Shown here piece after piece: positions 15,770-64,000 of a stretch of DNA of 64,000 bases. The position numbers and the translations under genes are program-made. The stretch is from the NCBI RefSeq assembly GCF_002973535.1, contig NZ_PVEP01000002.1:496001-560000 (forward strand). Reading direction: 5' to 3'. Positions within the stretch are counted from its first letter, which is position 1. The number at the start of each line of letters is the position of its first letter. The notes under the pieces were generated by a model. The model was not told where the DNA came from, made no database searches, and worked only from the letters and a program-made list of their open reading frames with translations. The stretch comes from Albidovulum denitrificans (GTDB taxonomy: Bacteria; Pseudomonadota; Alphaproteobacteria; Rhodobacterales; Rhodobacteraceae).

Positions 15770-15808
15770 TCGTGCCCCATTGCTGCCCTTTTTTAGCGGG
15801 GCTTGGCC

Positions 15809-49382: not shown

Positions 49383-49426
49383 GGGGGCTTGAACCGGACG
49401 CGGCTTCACCGTATTCACCCCCGCAC

Positions 49427-49516
49427 GGAGAGGTGGCCGAGTGGTCGAAGGCGCACGCCTGGAAAGTGTGTAGGCGGGGAACCGTCTCGAGGGTTCGAAT
49501 CCCTCTCTCTCCGCCA
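49427..49516 (+). tRNA. tRNA-Ser(GGA)
   Basis: 90 nt on the plus strand. The GGAGAGG/TCTCTCC acceptor stem is followed by G and encoded CCA (49514-49516). The anticodon is GGA at 49461-49463, the variable arm is long, and the T-loop is TTCGAAT in a GAGGG/CCCTC stem. Its 3' end and downstream sequence are partly duplicated 2.5 kb away. Confidence 0.95.
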
Positions 49517-49720
49517 CCGCATAACGCATTGATATTAAAAGATTTTATGCCTCACGTATTGTGTCGCGTTTTCCGCGACCTGTGCGGGGCGTTGGCCTCT
49601 AGAGACTTGAAATTGCAGGCGAAATAGCCGCCCAAAACGACCCGAGTCTCTGTTTGGCATTTGGCGCGATACGGTTTTCGGATGGCGCTTCGGGCGCCGG
49701 TCTTGACTTTGGGTCATTTC
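49509..49720 (+). repeat. tRNA-downstream repeat, copy 1
   Basis: About 210 bp starting in the tRNA-Ser 3' end (CTCCGCCACC) and running downstream; clearly related to 52047-52258. A 37-bp core (49600-49636, starting tagagacttgaaattgcag) is identical to 52138-52174, and the stretch around 49650-49685 (ctctgttt..catttggcgc) differs from the other copy at only two bases. No gene is seen up to 49849. Confidence 0.8.
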
Positions 49721-49849
49721 GAAGCTGGTGCGGGGCTGAATTCGTGGCGTTCAGCATAATGTGACGACTAACAGCGGCAGAAGTGCCTGCGAGCGCAGCC
49801 ACCTGAAAGCCCTGATGACAAAGGAACTTCTCGCCTTTAGCCTGGCGAC

Positions 49850-50686
49850 ATGTCGAACGGGACGTGGACGGACATCGAGAACGATCTGATTGTCGCGGAC
49901 TACTTCGCGATGCTCGCCGACGATGTTTCCGGGCGCCCTTATAGCAAAGCTGAGCATCGTCGCGCACTCCTGCCTCTGCTAAACAATCGGTCTGAAGGAT
50001 CGATCGAGTTCAAGCATCAGAACATCAGCGCGGTTCTTGTAGGCCTCGGCGAAGATCGGATCCCAGGTTACAAACCTGCATTCAATTACCAGATGGCTTT
50101 GGAAGATGCGGTGGACCGCTGGCTGGCTGAGAACCCTTCCTGGCTTGCACGTGTGGTAACTGGGCCTCAAGAAAACGAACTTCGTGAAGCGCCGCAAATC
50201 TGGGTTGGACCGCCGCCTACACTCTCAAACCAACCTCCACCTCAGGAACTGGAGCAGGTGCTGCGCGTTGCGCGCAAATTCGACGTCGCGGCTCGGGACG
50301 AGCGAAATCGAGCGCTTGGCCGCGCCGGCGAAGAGCGAGCGCTGAAACATGAGCGGGCACAACTCCGATCGGCCGGCCGTGATGACCTCGCGCGCAAGGT
50401 GATCTGGGTTTCCGAAGAAGAAGGCGACGGTGCGGGCTACGACATTGCGAGCTTCGAACCCGACGGGCGGCCGCGGCTGATCGAGGTGAAGACGACGAAC
50501 GGATGGGAGCGCACGCCCTTCCATATCACTCGTAACGAACTGGCTGTCGCGGAGGAGCGGCGTTCGGAATGGTGCCTGTTCCGGCTCTGGAATTTCTCAC
50601 GCGAACCCAAGGCCTTTGAGCTTCGCCCGCCACTGGATGCTCACGTGTCTCTTACAGCGACAGCGTTTCAGGCAAGTTTTCACTAG
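49850..50686 (+). CDS. DUF3883 domain protein, PD-(D/E)XK nuclease-like
   Basis: 278 residues. The N-terminal part (WTDIENDLIVADYFAMLADDVSGRPYSKAEHRRALLPLLNNRSEGSIEFKHQNISAVL) is a helical region often fused to restriction-like domains. The C-terminal part has RALGRAGEERALKHERAQL, then GAGYDIASFEPDGRPRLIEVKTTNGWERTPFHITRNEL. The D...(x)EVK pattern (YDIASF ... LIEVKTT) is the Mrr/DUF3883 active-site arrangement. DUF3883 proteins are common in defence islands. It is followed by an unknown coiled-coil/repeat gene after a gap of 88 bp. Confidence 0.82.
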   Translation: MSNGTWTDIENDLIVADYFAMLADDVSGRPYSKAEHRRALLPLLNNRSEGSIEFKHQNISAVLVGLGEDRIPGYKPAFNYQMALEDAVDRWLAENPSWLARVVTGPQENELREAPQIWVGPPPTLSNQPPPQELEQVLRVARKFDVAARDERNRALGRAGEERALKHERAQLRSAGRDDLARKVIWVSEEEGDGAGYDIASFEPDGRPRLIEVKTTNGWERTPFHITRNELAVAEERRSEWCLFRLWNFSREPKAFELRPPLDAHVSLTATAFQASFH

Positions 50687-50774
50687 GTTCTGCCGTGCCG
50701 CAGGGCCTGACGATTGCCTCTTTCAGGGATACCTGATTGAACTCAAGAGTATTTTTGATCGCACAGGTTTCATC

Positions 50775-51857
50775 ATGCCGAAGTCCAATCAACCCAGCTT
50801 GGCGGAAAAATATCTCGTCGATGATCTACCCGGCGCCGCGCTTATCGGCGCGCGGCTGAACGGTATCCTGCAGAAAATTGACCAGGGCGACACTCTAACA
50901 CCACTCGCCAGATCATTTCTTTCCGAAAACGGATTGGCGGCTCTGTTGGCCTTCACGATGGATGAATTGGATCTACAGGCCTTTCAACAGGTTGCCGCAC
51001 AAGAACGATCAGAGCGTATTCGAAGGGAAAAAGCCAAGGCAGAAGAAGAGGCTGCAGAAAGTGCCAAGCGGGCTGAGGCCATGGATGCGGCAATCAAGGC
51101 GCGATTTGCAGCCATGGAAAATGATCCGGTCTTGCGCCGAAAGCGGGAGGCCCGGGAATTGCGAAATCGCTTCGACATCGGTTTTGTCGACGAAGAGCAC
51201 TACCCGCGTGTGATGCGCCTGCTCAAACAAGTTGCTGCCGAAAAACGGATTCAGCCGGAGGACGTTGCCTGGTTGTCAACGGAGGCGCCGGATTGCTGGA
51301 CTGAAAAACTGCAGCAGGCTTGGCATCGTGTGGAAGCCTTGGCTCTGTCGGAGGAATGGGAGCGAACCAGTGACGTTTGGGCCGCCGTGAATGCCAGTGG
51401 GCATTGGCGAAAGGCCGATCAGCCTGGAAAGGCTTTGGAATTGACTGATGCTGCACTTGCGATTTCAGGTATCGCCGGAAAACCAAAATCGGCACTGTCG
51501 ACAACTCGTGGAGGCGCGATGCGTGATGTTGGTCGTCTCGCTGAAGCGAAAAAGTTGGGTTTGGATGCACACATGCTGACACCGACAGATTTCAGACCGT
51601 GTACGCTGATCGGCGCTGTGTCGATGGAACTCGGCGATCTGGCTGCCGGTCACGATTGGTACACGAAGGCTGAAGAACTGGGTGCAGAACGCGGCGCAAT
51701 CGACCACGAACTGAGGTCGTTGCTCGTCCGCTCGAACCCAGACGCGCAAGAACGTCTTCGTGCATTTCTGCTTGCTCAGGATCCGGAGCGTTTCCGCTGG
51801 CTGAGGAGTTGGGGCAGAAAAACTACTACGCAGGCGCGTTCGACGCCGACCGGGTAG
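50775..51857 (+). CDS. Coiled-coil and tetratricopeptide-like repeat protein, unknown function
   Basis: About 360 residues from the Met at 50775 (MPKSNQPSLAEKYLVDDLPGAALIGARLN); upstream in-frame sequence overlaps the DUF3883 end and looks non-coding. Residues about 75-125 are a charged coiled coil (AAQERSERIRREKAKAEEEAAESAKRAEAMDAAIKARF). The second half has repeat-like helical pairs (GKALELTDAALAISGIAGKPKSALSTTRGGAMRDVGRLAEAKKLGLDAHMLTPTDFRPCTLIGAVSMELGDLAAGHDWYTKAEELG) in TPR style. It may be the partner of the DUF3883 protein. Base composition is lower in GC than in core genes. Confidence 0.65.
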   Translation: MPKSNQPSLAEKYLVDDLPGAALIGARLNGILQKIDQGDTLTPLARSFLSENGLAALLAFTMDELDLQAFQQVAAQERSERIRREKAKAEEEAAESAKRAEAMDAAIKARFAAMENDPVLRRKREARELRNRFDIGFVDEEHYPRVMRLLKQVAAEKRIQPEDVAWLSTEAPDCWTEKLQQAWHRVEALALSEEWERTSDVWAAVNASGHWRKADQPGKALELTDAALAISGIAGKPKSALSTTRGGAMRDVGRLAEAKKLGLDAHMLTPTDFRPCTLIGAVSMELGDLAAGHDWYTKAEELGAERGAIDHELRSLLVRSNPDAQERLRAFLLAQDPERFRWLRSWGRKTTTQARSTPTG

Positions 51858-52025
51858 ATTGGTACGTGGCTGTTCGACTCGAACTTCGGCTACTTTTGGA
51901 CTACGGAGTTAGCCAAGGGTTTAGCCCGAGCTTTGTGCCTAAAAGTCGTTCAAAATCAACCGTCTACCCCAATTTCTACGCTGGAATTGTGCCGTGTTTT
52001 CCGGGGGTTAGAAAATGGAACATAT

Positions 52026-52054
52026 CTCTGGTTCGAATCCAGAGTGCTCCGCCA
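52026..52054 (+). repeat. tRNA 3'-end fragment (T-arm and acceptor strand with CCA)
   Basis: TCTGG-TTCGAAT-CCAGA forms a perfect T-arm, followed by GTGCTCC, G and CCA. No D-arm, anticodon arm or 5' acceptor strand precedes it. It marks the start of the second repeat copy and is likely the far attachment site of an element that used a serine-type tRNA. Confidence 0.65.
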
Positions 52055-52258
52055 CCACATAATCCATTGATTAAAAACAAGTTTTTACGGCACGCATTGT
52101 GGCGTGATTTGCGTGGCTTGCAGGCCGCATCGCCCCTTAGAGACTTGAAATTGCAGGCGAAATAGCCGCCCAAATTGGCGCAAGTCTCTGTTTGCCATTT
52201 GGCGCGATACGGTTTCCGGCCGTGGCTACGGGCGCTGGACTTGACTTCAGGGCACCAG
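52047..52258 (+). repeat. tRNA-downstream repeat, copy 2
   Basis: Diverged copy of 49509-49720 beginning CTCCGCCACC. The identical 37-bp core lies at 52138-52174. Copies 1 and 2 flank the DUF3883 and coiled-coil genes. The 51858-52046 stretch before it contains no gene I can support. Confidence 0.8.
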
Positions 52259-52304
52259 CAAGCTGGCGTGGACTTTGAGCAGCTACGGTCAGTCTCGGAA
52301 GGTT

Positions 52305-53021
52305 TCAGGCCATCGCCCGTTCCAGCCTCTGCTTCCGACGTTCCCAGTCAGGCATTACTTTGTCGAGGAGTTCGAAGAACGCCGTTCCGTGATGGGGCTC
52401 CGCCACGTGACAGAGCTCGTGGGTGATCACGTAGTCTATGGCATCGACCGGTGCCTGTACTAGGCGGCGATTGAGCAGCAAGCGTCCGGCCGACGACATG
52501 GACCCCCATCGCTTCCTGGTCTGACGCACGATGAGACCTTTCGGCCGAAATGCCTCGGGGTTCGGGAAGTGGCCGAGACAGAGTTTAATGCGCTCTGGAA
52601 ACTTGATGTGGGCCCGGTCCCGGTACCATGCCTCGACAAGTTCGCGCGTGATCTCAGGCCGGTTAGGCCGGTGAGTCTGCACGACGATGTAGCCGCGGAT
52701 CAGCTTCACGCTCTCTTGGACATGCGGGACGACCTTCAGCCGATACTGCCGCCCCAGGTAGAGATGCGTCTCCCCGGCGACGAACCTGCGCTCCGGCGTC
52801 CGCGGCAGGAACTGGGAGAAGTACCGCTGCTGCCTCGTCACCCAAGCCGCCCGCTTCCGCAGCTTGGCTTCGATGGCGTCGAGCGTCGAGTCCTCCGGGG
52901 CCGCGATCACCACCGATGCATCCGGCTCGACGGAGATCTCCAGTGTCTTCCTCGGGCGGCGGACGATCTCGTATTGGATCTCCTGCGTGCCGTACTGCAG
53001 GTAGTGCAACTCCCGTGTCAT
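52305..53021 (-). CDS. YgjP/SprT-like zinc metallopeptidase (M48-type), operon gene 7
   Basis: A 238-residue protein with the DUF45/YgjP pattern: RRPRKTLEISVEPDASVVIAAPEDSTLDAIEAKLRKRAAWVTRQQRYF, GETHLYLGRQYRLKV, then KRWGSMSSAGRLLLNRRLVQAPVDAIDYVITHELCHVAEPHHGTAFFELLDKVMPDWERRKQRL. It has the zinc site HELCH...H. These small metallopeptidases are often the last gene after hsdR in Type I restriction operons, where their role is unknown. The start overlaps the hsdR stop (ATGA). Confidence 0.9.
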   Translation of the reverse strand: MTRELHYLQYGTQEIQYEIVRRPRKTLEISVEPDASVVIAAPEDSTLDAIEAKLRKRAAWVTRQQRYFSQFLPRTPERRFVAGETHLYLGRQYRLKVVPHVQESVKLIRGYIVVQTHRPNRPEITRELVEAWYRDRAHIKFPERIKLCLGHFPNPEAFRPKGLIVRQTRKRWGSMSSAGRLLLNRRLVQAPVDAIDYVITHELCHVAEPHHGTAFFELLDKVMPDWERRKQRLERAMA

Positions 53022-56000
53022 GCCGCGAACCTGGCCCGGGCGAGATCCATGATCTTCAACTCGAGCTCGTCGAGCACCTCCACGGGCAGGTCGACGCTCT
53101 TTTCGTCGCGCAGGACGTCGAAGAAGTAGTCATCGATTGCATTCCGCAGATTGTTTTGGGCGACCTCGTTCGACCAGATGTCCACGATCAGGTGCGACTT
53201 GATGATGTCGATGATCTGTTGAGCGATGTTTGCTGCATCCTCGCCTCCAACCAGCACGTCTCCTGCGGTCTTCAGCTGACCGTCCAGAATCCCGAAGAAC
53301 GCCTGTGCATCCTCATCGCCCCGGATGCTTTCCGGAACATCCCGGCCCCGGTCCTTGCGTCCGACCTTGCTCGCGAGGTTCACGACGCTGTTCAGGTAGT
53401 CGCGCTCGGACAGCCGCTTCTCGCGATAGGCGCGGATGGTTTCTTCGAGCAGCTCGGAGAACTCTTTGTAGAGCGTCGGGTCCTCATCCATCTTCTCGGT
53501 GATTGCCCGCCGGGTTGCGCTGGCGATGCGGTCTGCCCTCGAGGCTTCTGAGACGCCAGTCTCCTCGACGACAGCCTTCAGCGCGTCGGGATCGTTGATG
53601 TTGACCACCTCGATGATGGTTTCCGCCGGCATTGCCACAACGTGGTCATCGAGCAGCTTCTGGATCTTTGGCTCGAACTCGCGAACGTCCACCGTCTCCT
53701 GGTAGCGGAGCTGGACCGAGCGCTTGAGTTCGGAGAACTGCTTCCAGTCCCGCTTCAAGGCATCGACCTTGGCCTCGTCGAAGACATCGAACAGCTTGTC
53801 GGATGAGAGCGAGATATGCAGGCACCGGCTGAATGCCTTGAGGCGCGCGTAGAACTCGTGGCGCAGCGCCTCGTCAGCGAGGTGCTGCTCGAACTGCTCC
53901 ATGTCCTTTTTGTTACGGACAGGCTTGAAGAGGTCCCAGAGCTGGTCGTGCAACTGGGGTAGCTTGCGGATCTCCTCCCGGACATCGTGCACCGTCCCGG
54001 CGAGGTCGGCCGCCTCGTAACCCTCAAAGGCGCTGTACGTCGTCAGGGCGCTGTCCAACTCACCCAGCAGCCCTTCGTAGTCGACGATGAAGCCGAACTG
54101 CTTCTCTATGCCGCCGTCCTCATAGAGCCGGTTCACGCGCGCAATCGCCTGCAGGAGATTGTGTTCCTTCAGGGACTTGCAGACGTAAAGCACCGTGTTC
54201 CGGGGTGCGTCGAAGCCGGTGAGCAGCTTGGAGACGACGATCAGGATCTCCGGATCGCCGGAGCCCTTGAAGGCATCAATGATCTGGCGGTTGTACTCAT
54301 CCTCGGTCTTGTACCGCGCCATCATCTGCGACCAGAAGCGGCGCACGAGGTCCCTGGACTCCTGGTCGACCTCCTCGTTGCCTTCGTTCTCGTCCGGCGG
54401 CGAAATGACGATCGCGCTCGAGACGTGGCCGATCTCGTCGAGAACCTCCTTGAAGCGGACGGCCGCCGCCTTCGACGGGGCGACGAGCTGCGCCTTGAAG
54501 CCGGTCCCCTGCCAGTGCTGGCGATAGTGCTCGGAGATGTCGAACGCCTTGGCTCGGATGGCCTGGTCAGTCTTGGCCAGCGCGTCCATCCGGGAGAACT
54601 TGCGTTTGAGGTCGGCCTTCTGACTGTCAGTCAGCCCCTCGCTGATCTTCTCGAACCAGCGGTCGATGACGGCGCCCGAGACCTGCTGCTCGACAAGCCG
54701 TCCCTCGTAGAGCAGCGGCACGACGGCACCGTCGGCGACCGCCTCATCGATGGCGTAGCGGTGGATCAGCCGCCCGAAGGTCGACAGCGTGTTCTTCTCC
54801 TTCTTGAGCAGGGGCGTGCCGGTGAAGCCGAGGTAACAGGCCTTGGGCAGGAGGCGCCGCATCTTGGCCGCGAACTGGCTGTGGCCGCCGTAGCGCCCGG
54901 TCTGCGTCCTGTGGCTCTCGTCCACCAGAACGAAGATGTTCGGATCGTCGTCCACCAGCTTGCTGTTCTTCAGCGCCGTGTCGAACTTGTTGATGATCGT
55001 GGTGACCAGCGGTGCCTTGTTGTGGACAAGCTCCAGAAGGTGAGCCCCGCTCGTCGCGCGAACCGGCTCGAGGTCGCACGACTTGAAGGTATCCTTGATC
55101 TGCTTGTCGAGATCGTCGCGGTCAGTGACGATGAGGATCCGCGGGTTCTCGATGCTGCGCTCGAGAGCGAGCGAGCGCCCCAGCATCACCATCGTCAACG
55201 ATTTGCCCGATCCCTGCGTGTGCCAGATCACGCCGCCCTTGCGAGCGCCGCTGACATCATGCTGCTTGACCGTCTCGACCGCGCGCCGGATCCCGAAGAA
55301 CTGCTGATGGCGTGCCACCTTGCGGACGCCGCCGTCGAACACGGTGAAGCGGCGGACGAGATCGAGCAGCCGCTCGGGGCGGCACAGCGCGTACACCGTC
55401 CGGTCCTGAGCCGTGACCACGCGCTCGCCCTCGGCGGCCATTGCGTCGAAATAGGCGCGTGCGCCTGCGAAGTCGCCGGAGAAGATGGCGTCCTTCTCCG
55501 CTGCGGTGAGCACGCGGTTCGCGAAGGGCGTGATGGCCTCGTCGGTGTCTTCCTCGTCGCGCCAAGTCTGCCAGAACTTCCGCGGCGTCCCGACCGTCGC
55601 ATAGCGTGCCTCGTTGCGGTTCATGCCGATCAGCAGCTGGGCGAAGTGGAAGAGCTGCGGGATGTTGTCCTCGTTCTGGTAGCCGATCAGCTGGCTGTCC
55701 GCCTTCTTCAGGCTTTCGGTCGGCCGCTTGTTCTCGATCACGAGGATCGGGATGCCGTTCACGAACGCCACGATGTCGCAACGCTTGGTCTGGCTCGACG
55801 CCGTCCTCTCGACCGAGAACTCGACAGTGACGTGAAAGACGTTGTTCTCCGGCCGCTCCCAATCGATGTAGCGGAACGAGTAGCTCTTCGAGTCGCCATC
55901 GATGGACTTCGTGATGGTCGTGCCGAGGACGAGCGTGTCGTAGATGTCCTGGTTCGTTCCCCGCAGGCCCTTCAGACGGTCGGGCGTGGGCTTGAGCCGG

Positions 56001-56233
56001 CGCATCGCCTCGTGTGCGTCCTCGAGGTCGAAGGCATACTCGCGGCCGCGATGCGTGAAGCCGTTGATGCGCATGAGCTGCTCGGCGAGCACATCGTCCA
56101 GCACCACGTTCCGCAGGCGCCCGCCACGCAGGCGAAGGGCCTCCTCCTGCGAGAGCGGGGTGAACCCGAGCGCAACCAGAAACTGCAGTGCTGGCACTTG
56201 GGACTGGTGTTTCTCGGCGGCGTTGAAGGTCAT
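53018..56233 (-). CDS. hsdR: Type I restriction endonuclease subunit R, operon gene 6
   Basis: 1071 residues, a usual HsdR length. The start at 56233 overlaps the kinase stop (ATGA); an upstream in-frame extension reads through the kinase gene and is rejected. The nuclease site near residues 153-169 has DIVAFVNGIPILVIENKR (D...ExK). The SF2 motor follows with HTQGSGKSLTMVML (Walker A), ILIVTDRDDLDKQI, VLVDESHRTQ (DEAD-like DESH), LGFTGTPL and LLTGFDAPRNTVLYVCKSL. The C-terminal helical domain contacts HsdM. It cleaves DNA distant from unmethylated sites after ATP-driven translocation. Confidence 0.95.
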   Translation of the reverse strand: MTFNAAEKHQSQVPALQFLVALGFTPLSQEEALRLRGGRLRNVVLDDVLAEQLMRINGFTHRGREYAFDLEDAHEAMRRLKPTPDRLKGLRGTNQDIYDTLVLGTTITKSIDGDSKSYSFRYIDWERPENNVFHVTVEFSVERTASSQTKRCDIVAFVNGIPILVIENKRPTESLKKADSQLIGYQNEDNIPQLFHFAQLLIGMNRNEARYATVGTPRKFWQTWRDEEDTDEAITPFANRVLTAAEKDAIFSGDFAGARAYFDAMAAEGERVVTAQDRTVYALCRPERLLDLVRRFTVFDGGVRKVARHQQFFGIRRAVETVKQHDVSGARKGGVIWHTQGSGKSLTMVMLGRSLALERSIENPRILIVTDRDDLDKQIKDTFKSCDLEPVRATSGAHLLELVHNKAPLVTTIINKFDTALKNSKLVDDDPNIFVLVDESHRTQTGRYGGHSQFAAKMRRLLPKACYLGFTGTPLLKKEKNTLSTFGRLIHRYAIDEAVADGAVVPLLYEGRLVEQQVSGAVIDRWFEKISEGLTDSQKADLKRKFSRMDALAKTDQAIRAKAFDISEHYRQHWQGTGFKAQLVAPSKAAAVRFKEVLDEIGHVSSAIVISPPDENEGNEEVDQESRDLVRRFWSQMMARYKTEDEYNRQIIDAFKGSGDPEILIVVSKLLTGFDAPRNTVLYVCKSLKEHNLLQAIARVNRLYEDGGIEKQFGFIVDYEGLLGELDSALTTYSAFEGYEAADLAGTVHDVREEIRKLPQLHDQLWDLFKPVRNKKDMEQFEQHLADEALRHEFYARLKAFSRCLHISLSSDKLFDVFDEAKVDALKRDWKQFSELKRSVQLRYQETVDVREFEPKIQKLLDDHVVAMPAETIIEVVNINDPDALKAVVEETGVSEASRADRIASATRRAITEKMDEDPTLYKEFSELLEETIRAYREKRLSERDYLNSVVNLASKVGRKDRGRDVPESIRGDEDAQAFFGILDGQLKTAGDVLVGGEDAANIAQQIIDIIKSHLIVDIWSNEVAQNNLRNAIDDYFFDVLRDEKSVDLPVEVLDELELKIMDLARARFAA

Positions 56234-57306
56234 TTCCCGGTCACCACGAATTGCTTGAAATCCGCGACGACCTTTTCCGCCTGCTTCTGGGTTAGACCCC
56301 GTCTGCAGAACTGGGTGACGCGCTGAGTATTGCCCGAGACCACATTGCGCTTGCTGCAGGTCACGTCGAACATCCCGCCTGCCACAGGCGAGACCGAGTG
56401 AGAGAACTCGCATGTCCCGCATTTGCCGACCTCATTGCCGGCAGCGTCGACGGTCCAGTGCCCGGGATAATCCAGCTTCTCGAGCGCGCGCCGCATCTCG
56501 AGCGCGCTAGTGTACCGTTTGGCCGGATCGGGATGGACGGCCTTCAGGATCACGCGCCGAACTGCCGCCGGGATGTGGCACCCGAAGTCCTTCGCCTGAA
56601 GCAGCTTCCCCGACGCAATGTCCTGATCGTACTGCGCCGAGCCGATGCTGGCGCGGACTGCACGCAGGTGGTCCAGGTGAATCAGCAACCTCGCAAGGGT
56701 CATCCCGACCTGGAAGATGTCCGAACTGACACCGATGTTTCCGGTCGCGAGGACTTCCGGTGCACGGTGGAGAACGTAAGCGTTCGGGGCCGCCACGGGG
56801 GCGCCGTTCGACGAAACGCCCGTTATCCCGTAATCGGACAGCATGGCCTGCTGCTGGGGCCCAAGCAGGATGTTTCCCGGCTTAATGTCGTTGTGATAGA
56901 AGCTGCGGGCATGGAGATACTCTAGCCCCTGTAGGATATCCCGCGCGATCCGCAGGACGGCAGGAAGCGGCAGATAGCCGGCCGGATTCGCCAAGGTCTC
57001 GACCGAACCGTTTGGCTGGTAGTCCATGGCGAGGATGACAGCATGCTCGCCCGACACCGGCACGACATCGGCCTGGTGAACGTACACGAGGTTGTTGTGC
57101 TCGAGCCGGTTGCCGATCTGGGCTTCACGCAGCCGCTCGTCCACTGACACCCCCGGCTGGAGGATCTTGACCGCGTACTCGCGCTGCACGGCAAGATCAT
57201 GCGCCAGCCAGACCTCTCCAAAGCTGCCTGCGCCGATCTTGCTGACCAATCGGTACTTGTAGAGGGTCATGCCGGGCGTGAGGGTGACAAGGACAAGCTG
57301 GTTCAT
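56230..57306 (-). CDS. Ser/Thr protein kinase embedded in the Type I restriction operon, operon gene 5
   Basis: 358 residues from MNQLVLVTLTPG (57306, overlapping the stop of the previous gene; 57327 is less likely). It has a complete Hanks-type kinase domain: Gly-rich loop GAGSFGEV (about 25-32), ATP-anchoring Lys in AVKIL (about 47), catalytic loop HNDIKPGN (Asp about 140), and DYG in place of DFG (158-160). The HRD Arg is replaced by Asn, so it is a non-RD kinase and may not need activation-loop phosphorylation. After the kinase there is a tail with CGTC, TCSK and FCRR cysteines that could bind zinc. No membrane helix is present. Its substrate is unknown; the Hsd subunits are obvious candidates. 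Confidence 0.93.
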   Translation of the reverse strand: MNQLVLVTLTPGMTLYKYRLVSKIGAGSFGEVWLAHDLAVQREYAVKILQPGVSVDERLREAQIGNRLEHNNLVYVHQADVVPVSGEHAVILAMDYQPNGSVETLANPAGYLPLPAVLRIARDILQGLEYLHARSFYHNDIKPGNILLGPQQQAMLSDYGITGVSSNGAPVAAPNAYVLHRAPEVLATGNIGVSSDIFQVGMTLARLLIHLDHLRAVRASIGSAQYDQDIASGKLLQAKDFGCHIPAAVRRVILKAVHPDPAKRYTSALEMRRALEKLDYPGHWTVDAAGNEVGKCGTCEFSHSVSPVAGGMFDVTCSKRNVVSGNTQRVTQFCRRGLTQKQAEKVVADFKQFVVTGK

Positions 57307-57770
57307 GGCCGGCGCAGCCCCCACCATGCCGCATTCACGGCGTCCGCCATCTTGTTGTCCCAGTACTTGTCGGTCTTGCCGACCCGGGTTTCGGCGTGCT
57401 GCTTCGTGTCCCTGCTCGTCGTGGGCATGGACGAGTAGATCTTCAGTTCGACCGGGATGCCGCGATGCGCACAGGCGAGCACGACGGCGGCATCTGCATG
57501 AGCCGACTTCCGCTTCGCCTTGGTATCATTCTGTGTGTATTCGTTCTGCTTGATCATCACCTTGGCGATGCCGGGGTGGGCATCGAAGATCGCGAGGATT
57601 TCGTGGTACAGCCAGTCCAGCCGCTCGGCATCGGCGTCCTCCCCGATAGGAGCAGGGACGGACAGCTTGTTGTCGCTGGCGGCGTTCTCCAACGTGTAGG
57701 CGCCGCCCACCTCCGACACGACGGCGTAGCGAGGCGCCTTCGGGTCGCCGCGAAATCCCAAAACTTTCAT
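57303..57770 (-). CDS. RNase H-fold-like protein (DUF3010/RuvC-like), operon gene 4
   Basis: 155 residues starting at MKVLGFRGDPKAPRYAVVSE (57770), overlapping the hsdS stop (ATGA). The pattern of a short strand pair at the start, an amphipathic helix (ERLDWLYHEILAIFDAHPG), a strand with an acidic residue (IAKVMIKQNEY), helix (AKRKSAHADAAVVLACAHRGIPVEL), and a final helix with D and A (WDNKMADAVNAAWWGL) resembles RuvC-like/DUF3010 RNase H-fold proteins. Catalytic acids are plausible (E in KQNEY; D in SAHAD and MAD) but not certain. It might be a nuclease or a degenerate nucleic-acid-binding subunit. Confidence 0.6.
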   Translation of the reverse strand: MKVLGFRGDPKAPRYAVVSEVGGAYTLENAASDNKLSVPAPIGEDADAERLDWLYHEILAIFDAHPGIAKVMIKQNEYTQNDTKAKRKSAHADAAVVLACAHRGIPVELKIYSSMPTTSRDTKQHAETRVGKTDKYWDNKMADAVNAAWWGLRRP

Positions 57771-59053
57771 GCCAGTTCCTTCTCTGAATTCACCCGCCAT
57801 TCGCCCGTCAGCAGCTTCTGCATGAGGCCACGTTTCTGGCGGGTCAGGGCTTCGATCTCGGTTTCGAAGCCAGCGCATTCGGTGTGCGAGGCGGTCACGA
57901 TGGCGGCGATAGCAGTCTGTTCCGCCGGGTCCATCGGGAGGCAGAGTTTGCCTTCGAGGAACTGGCTATTGGTAACGGCAATCGTGTTCTTGGCGCCCTT
58001 CTGGACGAGGGGATGGAGGTAGTTGCGCGCGGCCAGCGGAGACTCGAAGAGCGCGTCGAGGATCACGCCGAGCGCGTAGGTCTGCGGGGTGAAGACCCCG
58101 TAGAGCGGCGAGACGATGACCTCGCGGTCGATCTTGCTCTGCTTGATGATGCCGAGCGGGAAGTCGCCCGTGGGGCTTTTGGTGTAGACAATGTCGCCGG
58201 GCAGGACGCGGTTGTAGTGGTCGGTGTTTGCGGCCGAGAACGACCGTCCGAGATGTTCGACCTGGTTCACCAGCCCTTTGTGGACCGAGACCGAGTAGAC
58301 CTCCTCCGCGCCGGTCGATTTGGAGCCGTGCTCGTGGAGAACCGCGCTCAGGGGGACTTCGCGCCACTCGCCCGTAAAGCCGGGCAACCTGACCTTGCCG
58401 GTGAACAGATGGGTCCGGAACCAGACGCGGCGACGGATGTTCAGCGCGCGGAGGGCAGTGAGCTTTTCGAGCGCCTCGTCCCACGTCCGCAGGATCTCGG
58501 CGATCTTGCGCTGTTCGGGGAGTGGGGGGATCGGGATTGGGCAGTGCCGGCGGAACTCCGTTGGATTGATGTTCGCTTGGCTCACACCTCGCGTGGAGAG
58601 GCGCTTCAAAGCGCGTTGTGCGATGTCGCTAGTGAGCCAAGCGGCAACATATTCAGCGTCCGCGCGCTGTGGATCGACGTGCAGGCGGACCAGATAGGAT
58701 GCGAATACGGCGTCAAAGTCTTCGCGGACATAGCCGACTTTACCGACCAGATCGGGGCTGTTGGTGCGGTTGAGAAGGATGTCTCCACGGCGAAGACGGA
58801 ACGCCGACCAGTCGGTGCCGCCGCTGTCGACGGTGGCAAGTTCTTCGAACCTTACGACGCCGTCGACAAGGTCCCGCATTCCGACAATGGACGTGTCACC
58901 AGCAGAATCGCCAGGCTCGCTGAGGCCATACTCTGTCCCGCTCAAGACGTCATCCATTACGCCGATTGCCCAGTCGGTCGGGAGATCGCCGTCGAACAGT
59001 GACGCCGCGAAGGCGGTCCTTGCAGTCGGCGTCGGTATTGAAAGATCATCCAT
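57767..59053 (-). CDS. hsdS: Type I specificity subunit S with two target-recognition domains, operon gene 3
   Basis: About 428 residues from MDDLSIPTPTARTAF (a GTG 6 bp upstream is possible). The first recognition domain covers about 15-170, followed by the conserved spacer PLPEQRKIAEILRTWDEALEKLTALRALNIRRRVWFRTHLFTGKVRL. The second domain then runs to CLPMDPAEQTAIAAIVTASHTECAGFETEIEALTRQKRGLMQKLLTGEWRV. The two spacer helices set the spacing of the bipartite target. It overlaps the end of hsdM by about 8 bp and the next gene by 4 bp. Confidence 0.93.
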   Translation of the reverse strand: MDDLSIPTPTARTAFAASLFDGDLPTDWAIGVMDDVLSGTEYGLSEPGDSAGDTSIVGMRDLVDGVVRFEELATVDSGGTDWSAFRLRRGDILLNRTNSPDLVGKVGYVREDFDAVFASYLVRLHVDPQRADAEYVAAWLTSDIAQRALKRLSTRGVSQANINPTEFRRHCPIPIPPLPEQRKIAEILRTWDEALEKLTALRALNIRRRVWFRTHLFTGKVRLPGFTGEWREVPLSAVLHEHGSKSTGAEEVYSVSVHKGLVNQVEHLGRSFSAANTDHYNRVLPGDIVYTKSPTGDFPLGIIKQSKIDREVIVSPLYGVFTPQTYALGVILDALFESPLAARNYLHPLVQKGAKNTIAVTNSQFLEGKLCLPMDPAEQTAIAAIVTASHTECAGFETEIEALTRQKRGLMQKLLTGEWRVNSEKELA

Positions 59054-60563
59054 CGACACCGAGCTCCCTCAGATACCCGGCCATCTTCGCCCGTACCTCG
59101 GCCAGCTCGGCCTCGATCCGCAGGATGTCCATTTGCACCGCGGCGACGTCGATCTCTTCCTCCGGTTCGAAGGTGTCGACGTAGCGGGGGATGTTGAGGT
59201 TGAAGCCGTTCTCGGCGATCTCCTCGGGGCTGGCTCGGTGCGAATACCGCTCGACCTCGGCGCGGGTGCCGTAGGTCTCCAGCACCTTTGCCACATGCGC
59301 ATCGTCCATCACGTTCTGGGTCTTGCCCGGTATGAACTCCTTGCTGGCGTCGATGAACAGCACGTCGCGCCGATCCGCATTTGCGCCGCCTTCCTCGCGC
59401 GAGCGGTCGAAGATCAGGATGGCGACTGGGATCCCCGTGGTGGTGAACAGGTTGGCGGGTAGGCCGACGACGGCGTCGAGCAGGTTTTCCTCGATCAGTT
59501 GCTGGCGGATGCGCCCCTCGGCGCCCCCCCGGAACAGCACGCCGTGCGGCACGATCACCGCCACGCGGCCGGACTGGCGTTTGGCGATCTCGATCATGTG
59601 GGTGATGAAGGCGTAGTCGCCCTTGGACTTCGGCGGCACGCCGCGCCAGAAGCGCTTGTACTGGTCGCTGTCCGCATCCTCCGCGCCCCACTTGTCCAGC
59701 GAGAAGGGCGGATTGGCGAGCACCACGTCGAAGCGCATGAGGTGATCGCCTTCCACCAGCGCGGGGCTGTTGAGCGTGTCGCACCATTCGATGCGGGCGG
59801 CGTCCTTGGCGTGCAGGAACATGTTCATCCGGGCCAGCGCCCAGGTCGCCCCGTTCACCTCCTGCCCGTAGAGGGCGAAATTCTCGGAACCCACCTCCTG
59901 CGAAGCCTGGATGAGCAGCGAGCCGGACCCACAGGCGGGATCGCAGATCGTGTTGCCGGGCTGCGGCGCCGCCAGCTTGGCCAACAGACGCGACACGGCC
60001 GTCGGCGTGTAGAACTCGCCGGCCTTCTTTCCGGCGTCCGAAGCGAAGCGCGAGATCAGGTAGATGTAGCACTCGCCGATGATGTCCTCGGTCACCCGCG
60101 ACGGGCGCAGGTCGAGGGCGGGCTTGGCGAAGTCCTCGAGAAGGTTCTTGAGGCGGCGGTTGCGATCCTTCGGGCGGCCGAGGTTGGCCTCGGAGTTGAA
60201 GTCGATGTTGCGGAAGACGCCCTCGAGCTTCGCGCGGTTCGCGTCCTCGATCTTCTCCAGCGCGATGTTGATCAGCTCGCCGATGTTGGCCTCGTTCCGC
60301 TGGGCGTAGAGGTCGTAGTAGCTGGCGCCCTCGGGCAGGATGAACCGCTCGCGCTCGAGGCGGCGTCGAATGCGGGCCTCGTCGTCTCCGTACTGCTTGC
60401 GGTAGGTTTCGAGGTGGTCGTTCCAGAGGTCCGAAATGTACTTCAGGAACAACATCACGAGGATATAGTCCTTGTACTGGCCGGCATCGACGGCGCCCCG
60501 GAAGGTGTCGCAGGCCGCCCAGGCGGTCTGGTTGATCTGCTGCTGGGTGATCTGGTCGGTCAT
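59046..60563 (-). CDS. hsdM: Type I DNA methyltransferase subunit M, operon gene 2
   Basis: 505 residues. The N-terminal helical domain is ITQQQINQTAWAACDTFRGAVDAGQYKDYILVMLFLKYISDLWNDHLETYRKQYGDDEA. The AdoMet motif is TICDPACGSGSLLIQAS, and the catalytic motif is VLANPPFSLDKWG (NPPF, N6-adenine type). The C-terminal helix (ILRIEAELAEVRAKMAGYLRELGVDG) contacts HsdS. It overlaps the upstream half-HsdS stop (ATGA). Confidence 0.96.
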   Translation of the reverse strand: MTDQITQQQINQTAWAACDTFRGAVDAGQYKDYILVMLFLKYISDLWNDHLETYRKQYGDDEARIRRRLERERFILPEGASYYDLYAQRNEANIGELINIALEKIEDANRAKLEGVFRNIDFNSEANLGRPKDRNRRLKNLLEDFAKPALDLRPSRVTEDIIGECYIYLISRFASDAGKKAGEFYTPTAVSRLLAKLAAPQPGNTICDPACGSGSLLIQASQEVGSENFALYGQEVNGATWALARMNMFLHAKDAARIEWCDTLNSPALVEGDHLMRFDVVLANPPFSLDKWGAEDADSDQYKRFWRGVPPKSKGDYAFITHMIEIAKRQSGRVAVIVPHGVLFRGGAEGRIRQQLIEENLLDAVVGLPANLFTTTGIPVAILIFDRSREEGGANADRRDVLFIDASKEFIPGKTQNVMDDAHVAKVLETYGTRAEVERYSHRASPEEIAENGFNLNIPRYVDTFEPEEEIDVAAVQMDILRIEAELAEVRAKMAGYLRELGVDG

Positions 60564-61153
60564 CGGGCAATTTCCTTTTGGTCGGCGGCCTTAGCGGCAT
60601 CGACGAGAACGGCGCTTACGAGTGTTTCCCTGCGAGCGGCGAGTTGCCGGAGCAATTGCCCCTCCTGCCGGGCGAGAGCAGCGAGGTCGATGATGCGTCT
60701 CTGCGTCAGCAGGTCGGGCACGGCGATCTCGAGGCCTTCGAGGGCCACCATCGGGATCATCCTGAGGCTCGTGCCCTGTGCCTCCGCGCAGAGCCTGCGC
60801 TGCGCGTCGGGCTGGTTGATGGCCCATGCCAAGTATTCGGGGAGAACGCGGTCCCTGTTGGGGCGAATGATTACCAGCGGGACGATGACCACGACGGGTT
60901 CCGGCAGCGGATCGGGAATGGCCGCTGCAGCGTTCGGCTCGCCACGCGAGCGAAAGACGACCTCGCCGCCGCGTACGAGGTATCGGTCGGACAGCTTGTC
61001 CAGGTCGTACCTCTGGAAGTCCGGGCCGGGCGCCTCACCGCTAGCCCCGACGTCACGCAGCTGCAGCGCCGGCACCCCACCCTCCGGCAGCGGATCGAGC
61101 CTGCCGCGCGCCGTGTAGCCGGAGTGAATGTCGGAGAGCTCCGCGAGCCTCAT
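60560..61153 (-). CDS. Half-size HsdS-like subunit with a single recognition domain, operon gene 1
   Basis: 197 residues: one target-recognition domain (LAELSDIHSGYTARGRLDPLPEGGVPALQLRDVGASGEAPGPDFQRYDLDKLSDRYLVRGGEVVFRSRGEPNAAAAI) and one conserved-spacer helix (LLTQRRIIDLAALARQEGQLLRQLAARRETLVSAVLVDAAKAA). It is the promoter-proximal gene, placed before hsdM, and is not an obvious fragment of the full hsdS. Single-domain S proteins can work as homodimers or compete for HsdM, so it could be a second specificity or a modulator. Confidence 0.85.
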   Translation of the reverse strand: MRLAELSDIHSGYTARGRLDPLPEGGVPALQLRDVGASGEAPGPDFQRYDLDKLSDRYLVRGGEVVFRSRGEPNAAAAIPDPLPEPVVVIVPLVIIRPNRDRVLPEYLAWAINQPDAQRRLCAEAQGTSLRMIPMVALEGLEIAVPDLLTQRRIIDLAALARQEGQLLRQLAARRETLVSAVLVDAAKAADQKEIAR

Positions 61154-61162
61154 GGGGAAATC

Positions 61163-61183
61163 CTCTGTAAGTCATTTACAGAG
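61163..61183. promoter_or_regulatory. Inverted-repeat operator before the Type I operon
   Basis: Perfect 8-bp arms CTCTGTAA and TTACAGAG separated by 5 bp, 9 bp before the first start codon of the operon (61153). The position suggests repressor binding or a 5' leader hairpin. No obvious regulator gene lies nearby. Confidence 0.6.
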
Positions 61184-61461
61184 ATTTAGGTTAGTTTGCC
61201 CCGTGAGTCAATCCTATGAAATGCAGTTTTCGCCCTACAGAGAAAAAGTTCCAGTTTGCTGATTTCATGTGACCGGAGATGGACCCGGCGCCGGCCCAGT
61301 GACGCCTCCGGCCGCGGCGCGCTGTCCCGGTTCAGCTAGACACATCTTCTCTGCTCGGGCTCTGACGCCGGACGAGCGATATACATTAGCGAGCAATGAG
61401 AAGAGATCGGCGTTGCAGTCCAAGCTGTTATTATTATGCGATTTTGCAGGGTAATGAAGAG
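61184..61461. other. Intergenic stretch, no gene seen
   Basis: It is AT-richer than its neighbours, without recognisable frames or RNA motifs. It presumably holds the promoter of the minus-strand restriction operon. Confidence 0.5.
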
Positions 61462-63114
61462 TCAGAGATTGCCAAAAACTCGCTGCTGCATATCCCATTC
61501 CAGGGGCAGCTGCCTTCGCTTGAACCATTCCGATGTGAAGGCAACGGGCTGGCTACCCGCAGCCACCTGATCCAGAATATCTGGGGCGAGGAAGGCGAGA
61601 CTGATCATCTGCTGGATGCGGCTCGAGGTGGTTTTCTCTCGAGTAGCAAGGTCGCCGAAGGAGGCACCGGCTTTGATGGCCGCATACCATTTCTGTGCCG
61701 TCAGGATGTTCTTCGCCAGCACCGGATCGACCTGTGGCACGGCGGCACCAAGGATGATGCGGGCTTCGACACCTCGGCGCTGCATCTGGAATGATGCGGG
61801 AATCCGACGGGCCGCACTGTCGATCCGATCCGGCGCGATGCCGAGCCGGTCCGCCATGACTTTCCGGTCGAGCCGCAAGAGGATGCTACCCTGTGCGAGA
61901 TCGGCGCGGCGTAGCAGCGGAGCCCAGAGGTCGGCGGCACCCTCGGCGTCACAATCACATGCGATCTGTCGAAGCTTCGCTTGTAGATCGGGAACCTCGG
62001 AGGCCGTGATGTCCCGGACCAGATCGGTCACCACAGTGGGTTTGCGCAGGTGATCGCGGAGGACTCGGGCAATGCCGGTCTCAAGATCCCGTGCCGGCAA
62101 CCGCCATGCATCGGCGTGTTTCTCACGCCGGTCGGTGACTAGCCTGCGCGAGATGTAGTAGCGCAGACGCTTTCCGTTTTTCCGAGAATGGCTCGGGGTC
62201 AACCGATCTCCGATCTCATCGAAAAGCTTGCCGACCAGCGGCGAGCGTTCTGCCGCGTTCGGCCGTCCGCGGCTGCGGGCCGCTTCGGCGGCCAGGCGCT
62301 CCTGCAAAGTATCCCACGCTGCGGGGTCGATGATCGCCGGATGCTGCCCGTCGTAGGTCTTATCCCGGTGCCGGATGCGGCCGGCGTAGAGCGGGTTGGT
62401 CAGGATCTGATAGATGTGCCCGCGGCTGAATCGTGTTCCGCCGGTCGAGGTGCCCGTAGCGAACGACCGCAGTCGCGTTCTGTAGCCAAGTTCGTCCGCA
62501 TGTTCGGCGACTGCGCGTACCGAGCCGACATCGTGATAGAGGTCATGGATGTGGCGGACAATTGATGCTTCGGTCTCGTCGATCTTCAGGCTGCGGCCGT
62601 CAGGCTGGTAGCCGAAGGGCACTGTGCCGCCCATCCAGAGCCCCTTCTTCTTCGAGGCGGCGATCTTGTCGCGGATCCGTTCCGCCGTCACCTCGCGCTC
62701 GAACTGCGCGAAGCTGAGGAGCATATTCAGCGTTAGCCGTCCCATGCTAGTGGCGGTGTTGAAGGACTGCGTGACCGAGACGAAGGAGGCGCCGGCTGCA
62801 TCAAGCCGATCGACAATTTTCGCGAAGTCGGAGAGCGAACGGGTCAGCCGGTCGATCTTGTAGACGACAATCTGGTCGACGAGGCCCGCCTCGATATCCG
62901 CGAGCAGGCGCTGGAGCGCTGGCCGCTGCAGGGTCCCTCCGGACAACCCTCCGTCATCGTAGCGGGTCGGGATGAGCACCCAACCCTCCGCCTTCTGGCT
63001 CGTCGCATAGGCAGCGCATGCCTCGTGCTGGGCGTCGAGCGAGTTGAAGTCCTGATCAAGTCCTTCTTCGGAGGATTTCCGGGTGTAGATTGCACAGCGT
63101 ATCCGGCGCGCCAT
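61462..63114 (-). CDS. Large serine recombinase
   Basis: 550 residues starting at MARRIRCAIYTRKSSEEGLDQDFNSLDAQHEAC (63114); an earlier Met (63159) lies in the preceding gene. It has a resolvase catalytic domain with Ser in YTRKSSE, DGGLSGGTLQRP, VYKIDRLTRSL and FAQFEREVTAERIRDKIA. A recombinase domain follows (FGYQPDGRSLKIDETEASIVRHIHDLY; ILTNPLYAGRIRH) and then a long C-terminal region with DNA-contacting helices. No clean Cys4 zinc ribbon is visible. It catalyses site-specific integration or excision through a Ser-DNA intermediate. It has the same module as 9179-9831, here intact. Confidence 0.93.
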   Translation of the reverse strand: MARRIRCAIYTRKSSEEGLDQDFNSLDAQHEACAAYATSQKAEGWVLIPTRYDDGGLSGGTLQRPALQRLLADIEAGLVDQIVVYKIDRLTRSLSDFAKIVDRLDAAGASFVSVTQSFNTATSMGRLTLNMLLSFAQFEREVTAERIRDKIAASKKKGLWMGGTVPFGYQPDGRSLKIDETEASIVRHIHDLYHDVGSVRAVAEHADELGYRTRLRSFATGTSTGGTRFSRGHIYQILTNPLYAGRIRHRDKTYDGQHPAIIDPAAWDTLQERLAAEAARSRGRPNAAERSPLVGKLFDEIGDRLTPSHSRKNGKRLRYYISRRLVTDRREKHADAWRLPARDLETGIARVLRDHLRKPTVVTDLVRDITASEVPDLQAKLRQIACDCDAEGAADLWAPLLRRADLAQGSILLRLDRKVMADRLGIAPDRIDSAARRIPASFQMQRRGVEARIILGAAVPQVDPVLAKNILTAQKWYAAIKAGASFGDLATREKTTSSRIQQMISLAFLAPDILDQVAAGSQPVAFTSEWFKRRQLPLEWDMQQRVFGNL

Positions 63115-63115
63115 C

Positions 63116-63610
63116 TTAAGCTGCCTTTCCTCGCTGAGACGGCTTGGTGGGCTGTGCATCCCGTCCGGCGTCGCCCGTCAGCCCGAAAAACCGTGGGCCC
63201 GACCAGCGGGCACCGGTTATCTTCCTAGCAATGGCGGAGAGCGACACATACCGCTCCCCGCCCATCAAGAACCCGCCGTCGATCACCTCGACGGTCCAAG
63301 TGCGGCCCTGCCATTCTCGGACCAGCTTCGCGCCGGGGGGCAGCTTGGTGCCAACGGACGCCCGAGATGCGGAACCCGCGGCGATGCGGCCTAGGTCCTC
63401 GATCGTTCGGGCCTTGGGCCCCCCGAGCGCCTGACACTGCAGTTCAAAGGCGAGCGCGCGGCGCAAGAACGGTAGCGAGAGGTTCTTTGGGGGAGGTGCC
63501 CCGATCACCTCGCGCCAGAGATCGAGCAGGCCGGCGCGATCTGCGGTTTCGACTGCAGCAAGAGCCTCAGGCAGGTCTCTTGGCGCAACTCGCTGGTCGG
63601 CCGAATTCAT
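63116..63610 (-). CDS. DUF2924 protein (serine recombinase partner)
   Basis: 164 residues with the DUF2924 pattern: LLDLWREVIGAPPPKNLSLPFLRRALAFELQCQALGG, then PGAKLVREWQGRTWTVEVIDGGFLMGGERYVSLSAIARKITGARWSGPRFFGL. It ends 1 bp before the recombinase start and overlaps the DUF3489 stop by 4 bp (ATGA). It is homologous in layout to the copy at 9379-9834. Confidence 0.9.
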   Translation of the reverse strand: MNSADQRVAPRDLPEALAAVETADRAGLLDLWREVIGAPPPKNLSLPFLRRALAFELQCQALGGPKARTIEDLGRIAAGSASRASVGTKLPPGAKLVREWQGRTWTVEVIDGGFLMGGERYVSLSAIARKITGARWSGPRFFGLTGDAGRDAQPTKPSQRGKAA

Positions 63611-63933
63611 TGGCGCGCCTCCGCGTCGTTCCCGGTTTTCGCACGGGCATCGGGCTTGAGCGGGATCCGGTAGATCAACCCGGAGCTGCCGTCAGCCGGC
63701 TTCGCCGTTTCGACCTTGTGGCCCGTCTTGCGCAACCCGGTGATGGCCGCGCGCGTCGTATGGGGCTGCCAGCCGAGTGCTGCGCTGATCGTGGTGATCG
63801 TGCTGCCGTCGTCCTTGTGCAACATTTTTATCAGTCGGGTCTTCTTACTCTCGGCGCGGGCCGAAGGTGTGGTCTTGGCCGGCAGCTTCGTCGCTTTGGT
63901 GGTTTCGGGATTGGTGCTAGGCTTCTTCGTCAT
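63607..63933 (-). CDS. DUF3489 protein
   Basis: About 108 residues from MTKKPSTNPETTKATKLPAK (63933). The Thr/Lys/Pro-rich N-terminal tail is followed by a winged-helix-like core SKKTRLIKMLHKDDGSTITTISAALGWQPHTTRAAITGLRKTGHKVETAKPADGSSGLIYRI. DUF3489 genes regularly precede DUF2924 and serine recombinases, where they may bind DNA at the recombination site. It overlaps the DUF2924 start (ATGA). Confidence 0.85.
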   Translation of the reverse strand: MTKKPSTNPETTKATKLPAKTTPSARAESKKTRLIKMLHKDDGSTITTISAALGWQPHTTRAAITGLRKTGHKVETAKPADGSSGLIYRIPLKPDARAKTGNDAEARQ

Positions 63934-64000
63934 TGTCGGTCTCCTGGTTCGGGCAGGATCCATTCCGGCCCTTCTACCAAGCAGAGCCCGGAATTCCGGG

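Follow-up and report, generated by a model that had tools for sequence, protein, structure and literature searches.

Why should a Ser/Thr kinase and a small partner protein be encoded in the middle of a type I restriction operon? This question is raised by seven minus-strand genes in a 64,000-nucleotide stretch of Albidovulum denitrificans (contig NZ_PVEP01000002.1, positions 496,001 to 560,000; hereafter the window), in which a Hanks-type kinase and a protein with a predicted RuvC fold, together referred to as the pair, are encoded between hsdS and hsdR. Taken together, the data presented here suggest that the pair is probably a portable two-gene cargo module, i.e., a second-line and phage-triggered defence that would be co-expressed with restriction, its function being read from its embedding in the operon. 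The hsdS-hsdR slot is already known from DarTG2, TgvAB, and PrrC, whereas its kinase/RuvC-like occupant appears to be new.

Recurrence of the pair

A plasmid search with the small protein returned three records from two species (Novosphingobium and Methylocystis), in which the kinase gene adjoins the small-protein gene and the gene order is that of the window, the Methylocystis operon having an extra GIY-YIG gene between hsdM and hsdS. A scan of GTDB species genomes added 15 loci, a lower bound since only loci sharing a short peptide pattern are found in this way, and a scan of viral contigs gave 2 loci, while phage records yielded no match to the RuvC-like protein. A search among 195 genomes of relatives returned only the window and the locus L007 (2/195). 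In total, 20 distinct loci are known, the window being counted and one near-duplicate Methylocystis record excluded; their hosts are mostly Alphaproteobacteria, two being metagenome-assembled genomes (MAGs) of Bryobacteraceae and Acidobacteriaceae.

The pair occupies the hsdS-hsdR slot in 16 of these 20 loci; the initial annotation was thus right in placing it there with tight coupling, and the arrangement recurs. The two genes are adjacent in 19 loci, and their junction, taking the start nearest the stop, is a 4-bp overlap in 18 of them and a 1-bp overlap in L009. The exception to adjacency is the decayed locus L018, where a broken small-protein frame lies behind an HsdS fragment and the kinase was looked for and not found; L012 has an interruption in its kinase frame. 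Since the seven-gene order reappears in other species, it reflects more than chance.

Besides, L014, L015, and L019 carry an intact pair without any detectable HsdM, HsdS, or HsdR, even when searched with the proteins of the nearest operon relatives, the search upstream of the L015 pair covering only 660 bases. These stand-alone pairs seem to lie on islands: the L014 pair shares its locus with a tRNA-His gene, the L015 pair stands between recombinase-like frames near a tRNA-Ser, and the L019 pair follows a GuaA-like frame and an integrase-like fragment (all read by eye, apart from the tRNAs). A DUF4917 gene (PDC-S21) is found 3' of the kinase in L013, L017, and the stand-alone L014, with a remnant in L019. 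In another locus, L008 (422-9177), hsdR is split: the plus strand encodes residues 1-446 and the minus strand residues 430-1064 together with ygjP, which is either an inversion or an assembly fault.

The slot and its other occupants

The content of the slot was surveyed in 18 plasmid records and 6 genome regions, the occupants being mostly named after the annotation of the records, while ten plus nine cargo or neighbour proteins were checked by family search. An HsdM match was present in 443 plasmid records, and every one of the 10 reaching >=80% identity was opened. The slot of these ten holds DUF6119/TIGR04141 in four (L039, L040, L045, and L047), Shedu with HAD in L042 and L044, Shedu with DUF3800 in L043, HAD in L041, DUF3800 in L046, and the pair in L003; the DUF6119 protein has a Pfam match and no PADLOC match. 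An empty slot was found in none of the ten. The initial annotation had considered that a kinase/RNase H pair almost never carried by homologous operons would be a chance insertion. The rarity is real, only one of ten close operons (L003) having the pair, but the other nine hold other genes and none is empty, which therefore indicates cargo exchange and not chance insertion.

Between 60 and 80% HsdM identity, five of the 6 plasmid records were opened, and their slots contain a CBASS-type cyclase with a 2TM effector and AbiD (L071), AbiD (L066), Fic/PDC-S24 (L067), DUF3800 with PDC-M04B (L048), or the pair (L004); the sixth record is a near-duplicate of L004 in which the pair is present as well. 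Below 60% identity, three of 427 records were opened: Zymomonas and Acetobacter show gaps of about 30 bp without cargo, and Klebsiella a PDC-S12 gene and a second gene. Finally, 11 of 385 genomes of the class (the window's included) have an HsdR match at E 1e-100, of which six were fetched and four left out. One of the fetched regions holds Kiwa (L034; KwaA 260.9 bits and KwaB 398 bits) and three hold DUF3800 (L035, L036, and L037), the regions of L027 and L038 being uninformative.

A second cargo site exists between hsdM and hsdS (L034 and L041-L044; L004, L011, L013, L017, and L048; L067). It holds RhuM-type genes, GIY-YIG-type genes, or a PemK/MazF toxin-antitoxin pair, as known from annotation or reading of the sequence, only the RhuM of L034 having been checked by family search.

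Exchange at the DNA level and co-divergence with the restriction genes

Comparison of the window with L039 and L040 locates the exchange. Their DNA is 91.4% identical over hsdM and 90.7% and 90.2% identical, respectively, from the hsdR start to the ygjP end, while in between only the conserved central and 3' stretches of hsdS align and the cargo is unrelated, so that the exchange is bounded by the 3' end of hsdS and the start of hsdR. Similar breakpoints are seen at 86-88% identity with L045 and L041, and at 74-82% with L043, whereas for operons with the same cargo (L006, L007, and L020) an unbroken alignment at 89-94% runs on from inside hsdS to the end. In 9 of the 10 close operons, the exception being L003, the annotation shows a 4-bp overlap between the last cargo gene and hsdR, and the exchange is therefore seamless. 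The pair is thus placed as an embedded and exchangeable defence module would be, both through its slot in 16 of 20 loci and through this exchange of DNA, and it is no fixed part of the restriction enzyme. Chance insertion, in turn, is contradicted by the slot shared by these 16 loci and by the swapping of cargo between near-identical operons.

In the same comparisons, HsdS of L002 and L007 departs from that of the window in its first recognition domain, but its second half and all that follows it are near-identical, a pattern that reads as domain exchange in hsdS.

Protein distances between 15 operons correlate at r=0.967 between the small protein and the kinase and at 0.993 between HsdM and HsdR, while the correlation between the pair and the HsdM/HsdR block ranges from 0.708 to 0.738; YgjP correlates at 0.816-0.831 with the pair and at 0.940-0.948 with HsdM and HsdR. 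All these correlations have a p of 0.0002, and the two blocks are therefore not independent.

These results bear on the possibility that the pair regulates restriction, the kinase phosphorylating HsdR or HsdM for alleviation or activation, the RuvC-like protein serving as adaptor, and the seven genes forming one machine. Such a role finds some ground in the overlap of the genes, in the one slot of 16 of the 20 loci, and in the remaining pair/core correlation of 0.71-0.74. Phage kinases reported to phosphorylate defences and thereby inactivate them (PMC12904381) also indicate that phosphorylation can act on such enzymes. Nevertheless, nearly identical hsdM and hsdR stand beside other cargo, more distant operons have an empty slot, and the pairs of L014, L015, and L019 lack detectable hsd genes. 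The slot is moreover shared with Shedu and Kiwa, which act on their own. Regulation of restriction is consequently unlikely. The proposal, made from the initial reading of the locus, that the kinase controls restriction is not supported in view of the same facts, i.e., co-evolution of hsdM and hsdR without the pair, an hsdR about 90% identical in DNA beside other cargo, and three pairs without hsd; as a proposed function, a separate (abortive-infection) arm, the other proposal, fits better. Likewise, a fixed seven-gene machine, or one functional system as had been argued from the tight coupling, does not hold, the core occurring with other cargo and three pairs occurring without detectable type I genes.

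Both genes of the pair are under purifying selection between close relatives: measured against the window, dN/dS (the ratio of non-synonymous to synonymous substitution rates) lies at 0.09-0.18 in 7 comparisons of the small protein and at 0.04-0.14 in 6 of the kinase, a seventh being saturated. Functionless passenger genes, sitting by chance in a recombination-prone gap, would agree with an exchange-prone slot and a rare pair; yet the pair recurs in Alphaproteobacteria and in two Acidobacteriota-type MAGs with constant pairing, its dN/dS is well below 1, and its catalytic residues are conserved, so that this possibility is extremely improbable.

The RuvC-fold small protein

Searches of Pfam, NCBIfam, PADLOC, and PHROGs, at the limits used, yielded no match to the small protein. 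Its AlphaFold2 model, computed from a 17-row alignment, has a mean predicted local distance difference test (pLDDT) of 88.6, and a Foldseek search with this model gave RuvC structures as best PDB matches (E 1.4e-10 and a template modelling score, TM, of 0.79 with 7xhj). There were 27 PDB matches at E <=0.001, of which the first 13 are bacterial or phage RuvC. The modelled protein thus has a RuvC fold, in agreement with the RNase H-fold label that it had been given. The accompanying label of DUF3010-like finds no supporting sequence match: Pfam gave no DUF3010 match at 0.01 for the window protein and none at E 1 among 19 members. PDC-M62B was likewise discarded as a name, since only 2 of 19 members match it (E 0.0005 and 0.04), and these do so along a stretch of about 44 residues, the model having 401 positions; in 190 genomes, this model has 4 matches covering 31-152 positions, and none in the window's genome.

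The compared RuvC proteins have four acids, D7, E66, D138, and D141, which we take to be catalytic. Not all four are kept in the small protein as aligned. Opposite Asp7, at the end of the first strand, all 19 members have an Arg (Arg7), and the hhalign profile comparison with RuvC also sets Arg7 opposite Asp7, with a weak probability of 5%. By position and motif, Lys74 (19/19) at the end of the fourth strand takes the place of Glu66, and Lys140 (18/19) at the start of the last helix that of Asp138, while Asp143 corresponds to Asp141. Conserved basic residues are Arg7, Lys74, Lys86, Arg87, and Arg129. The small protein is therefore like the RuvC Holliday-junction resolvase in fold, whereas it has Arg in place of Asp7 and no match to the RuvC family in sequence. 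As judged from these alignments, it is probably devoid of RuvC-type cleavage, the first catalytic Asp being gone and probably others too.

The kinase

As a Pkinase match of 121.1 bits (threshold 31.7) indicates, the second cargo gene encodes a member of the Hanks-type Ser/Thr kinases, and K47, E61, D140, N145, and D158, presumably the catalytic residues, are invariant in 18 of 18 sequences; kinase activity is thus predicted. The structural model is good (blocks of 88-96 in pLDDT) over the last ~68 residues, which are beta-rich with a helix at the end. For this C-terminal domain, a sequence search of the PDB gave no useful match (one at E 0.95), and no PADLOC model matched it in the three members searched. 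It was found in 329 genomes only as the window's own copy and a weak match with a stop, and in plasmids as the three known records and one match at E 0.8. The best 50 matches of a fold search with the whole kinase are kinase domains only, without placement of the tail. A zinc finger suggested by four Cys of the window copy was rejected because these Cys are not conserved.

Relation to known systems

The closest arrangement is the RRDM island, for which PMC12255303 describes DarTG2 between hsdS and hsdR, a metallopeptidase gene downstream, and a gap called a potential defence-system hotspot. As in the window, a defence module of two genes fills this gap of the island, and hsdR is followed by a gene for a zinc metallopeptidase, of M48 type there. 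Its cargo is a toxin-antitoxin pair whereas that of the window is a kinase with a RuvC-like protein, and it starts with the repressor RptR, while the operon of the window starts with a half-HsdS and has no RptR among its seven genes. TgvAB is similarly embedded in a Vibrio type I locus (PMC11411939, where RloF between hsdR and hsdS is cited), but is described there as a modification-dependent nuclease, without a kinase. PrrC of EcoprrI is again an embedded second line coupled to restriction-modification, but an anticodon nuclease without a kinase (PMC12707154).

In the same account, prrC lies in a type I locus and its product is activated on inhibition of EcoPrrI. A pair that stays silent beside an intact type I complex, and is activated once a phage inhibitor disables this complex, would thus be a variant of the second-line explanation with a specified trigger, only the operon position being compared. 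The position is alike here. In contrast, where no type I genes are detected, the pair would be left with nothing to guard, and HsdM and HsdR accompanying the pair diverge to 64% and 43-46% identity, respectively, while a specific contact surface would need conservation. This guard role is hence quite unlikely.

Defence systems with kinases were compared as well. The best PADLOC match of the window kinase is the MADS kinase MAD6 (137.9 bits), and MADS, judged by its model names, resembles the operon in combining a kinase with a methyltransferase and an HsdS-like protein. All its models are however far below the NCBIfam cut-offs (MAD6 136.2 of 460 bits, MAD2 57.7 of 720, and MAD5 32 of 400), the window adds a complete HsdR, and none of the MADS models fits the RuvC-like protein. 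BREX type 2/Pgl resembles the operon in having a Ser/Thr kinase, PglW, in a methylation-based defence, but the models score 36.6 bits against a cut-off of 990 for PglW and 30.4 of 500 for PglX, with no PglZ-type match among the seven proteins. Both systems were consequently discarded as names for the operon. The likeness to the PD-T4-6 kinases of PADLOC (up to 133.9 bits) is limited to the alignable kinase domain. The pair as a whole has no convincing PADLOC system match. The initial annotation knew of no described type I system with such a kinase and small protein between hsdS and hsdR, and none was met in the searches made of open-licence papers, preprints lying outside this scope.

A probable portable second line of defence

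The second-line explanation can be cast as follows. Lacking the first catalytic Asp, the RuvC-fold protein would bind, most likely through a basic surface, rather than cut, its ligand being a nucleic-acid structure (e.g., branched DNA) or a phosphorylated ligand that would arise as the phage replicates despite or during restriction. Once bound to this ligand, the protein would release the kinase, which would phosphorylate a host or phage protein and thereby stop growth or phage production. In the four loci having its gene 3' of the kinase (one as a remnant), the DUF4917 product is a possible effector acted on. In this scheme, we infer the defence function, the sensor and effector roles, the trigger, and the substrate.

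An autonomous second arm is favoured because of the pairs without hsd genes, the cargo exchange, and the defence systems found in the slot. Recognised defences among the latter are Kiwa, Shedu, the CBASS-type cyclase with a 2TM effector and AbiD, and AbiD alone, to which catalogued candidates have to be added, the PDC names denoting putative candidates from guilt-by-embedding (PMC12988326).

Several observations nevertheless weigh against this explanation. The pair tracks hsdM and hsdR at about 0.7 (p 0.0002), so that some co-inheritance with the host operon exists. Of the 20 pairs, no more than 3 are found outside an operon, and only 660 bases upstream are covered for one of them, L015. With a mean pLDDT of 69.6, the model of the kinase is poor, its weak part being the kinase domain. 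As for the small protein, the profile alignment gives no support to the correspondence of Lys74 with Glu66 and stops before residue 140, while the acids E77, D82, and D143 are invariant, and the metal site may accordingly be rearranged. The defence role itself would follow from guilt by embedding. Finally, the pair is rare and the survey small: profile searches of genomes drawn evenly recovered the small protein from 1 of 385 (class) and 1 of 329 (phylum), being in both cases the window's own.

A more specific version is doubtful yet worth stating, namely that of a kinase-based immune switch, in which a RuvC-fold protein, whose metal-binding acids would have been replaced by conserved basic residues, senses branched or recombining phage DNA, or a phosphorylated ligand, for a dedicated Hanks kinase, both moving as one cassette with start/stop overlaps seamlessly into and out of type I operons. 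If true, this pair would give restriction a phosphorylation-based second line. Modules embedded in such operons have already proved to be a source of new defence systems, and the operons compared here constitute a natural experiment, with near-identical type I cores accompanied by Shedu, Kiwa, cyclase, AbiD, DUF3800, DUF6119, or kinase cargo. Such core variants let the question be asked whether the core only drives expression of its cargo or is sensed by it.

Layout of the operon

The features of the operon are listed in Table 1. All seven overlapping minus-strand genes proposed from the initial reading are present, with 4-bp overlaps at five of the six junctions and a longer one at the sixth. 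The 4-bp overlaps lie at 60560-60563 (half-hsdS/hsdM), 57767-57770 (hsdS/RuvC-like), 57303-57306 (RuvC-like/kinase), 56230-56233 (kinase/hsdR), and 53018-53021 (hsdR/ygjP). The hsdM/hsdS overlap is 14 bp from the GTG at 59059 and 8 bp from the ATG at 59053, the 8-bp overlap being the annotated one in L003 and L040.

Table 1. Coordinates of the type I operon and its associated features in the window.
Feature	Position	Strand	Remarks
Half-HsdS	60560..61153	(-)	197 aa, single target-recognition domain; first gene of the operon; PADLOC Specificity_I 62.5 bits
HsdM, type I N6-adenine methyltransferase	59046..60563	(-)	family matches
HsdS, full specificity subunit	57767..59059	(-)	GTG 59059, alternative ATG 59053; family matches
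RuvC-fold small protein (predicted), cargo gene 1	57303..57770	(-)	155 aa; AlphaFold2 model and alignment
Hanks-type Ser/Thr kinase (predicted), cargo gene 2	56230..57306	(-)	358 aa; C-terminal domain of ~78 aa, family-specific
HsdR, type I restriction/translocase subunit	53018..56233	(-)	family matches
YgjP-like zinc metallopeptidase	52305..53021	(-)	last gene of the core operon; family match
Cargo slot hsdS-hsdR	56230..57770	(-)	holds unrelated genes in operons with near-identical hsdM/hsdR
Palindrome CTGTA-N7-TACAG, putative operator	61165..61181	no strand	12-28 bases before the half-HsdS start

Curated families place the core among the type I restriction-modification systems, with site-specific methylation and ATP-dependent cleavage being predicted: HsdM matches N6_Mtase (331 bits) and TIGR00497 (275.8 bits, cut-off 242.75), HsdS matches Methylase_S (46.8 bits, above the gathering score), and HsdR matches TIGR00348 (463.6 bits, cut-off 284.55) and, above the gathering score, HSDR_N. 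The YgjP-like match reaches 180.4 bits. The half-HsdS has no Pfam match in the family search of the window proteins; it is recognised by PADLOC specificity models and a weak NCBIfam match.

The promoter palindrome and the half-HsdS

In related operons, a palindrome CTGTA-N7/8-TACAG lies upstream of the half-HsdS gene, often twice around a TTGAC. It is exact in 17 of 21 promoters and present with <=1 mismatch in 18, while 1217 control stretches of those loci have 0 exact copies and 5 with <=1 mismatch, the motif having been chosen after these promoters were viewed. It is common to the promoters of related operons irrespective of the cargo, and was not found with <=1 mismatch in 10 more distant operons checked, one of which has a misplaced start.

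This conserved palindrome could fit a role of the pair in controlling expression: its two proteins would sense DNA damage and tune transcription of the operon, as CapK and CapS do for other immune operons. According to PMC13373217, the kinase CapK responds to single-stranded DNA by becoming active, and it phosphorylates CapS, a repressor. Operons with other cargo have the palindrome as well, and the pair is therefore not needed for it; CapK is like anti-sigma factor kinases in that account whereas the window kinase belongs to the Pkinase family; and CapK/CapS lie upstream of their operons while the pair lies inside its own. Such a control role is therefore very unlikely.

In most of the operons opened, a conserved half-HsdS is encoded 5' of hsdM besides a full HsdS. 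Its recognition domain looks conserved across the aligned operons, whereas that of the full HsdS does not. The half-HsdS together with HsdM is a candidate binder of the palindrome, a second specificity or autoregulation being possible.

Flanking DNA

A 242-nucleotide direct repeat, 75% identical, is present at 49492-49733 and 52030-52271 of the window, and it starts within the 3' end of a tRNA-Ser(gga) gene (49427-49516). As read from the sequence, these repeats mark tandem islands at this tRNA gene, the L007 operon adjoining the same tRNA (15717-15806). A third copy, which would give the right-hand end of the island, was not found in the next 15 kb, and Rfam gave only tRNA in 49000-64000. Between the two repeats, a gene encoding a NOV_C domain (49850-50686; PDC-S36 match of 431 bits) is a further defence candidate. 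Directly upstream of the operon, a large serine recombinase with Resolvase and Recombinase domains is encoded at 61462-63159.

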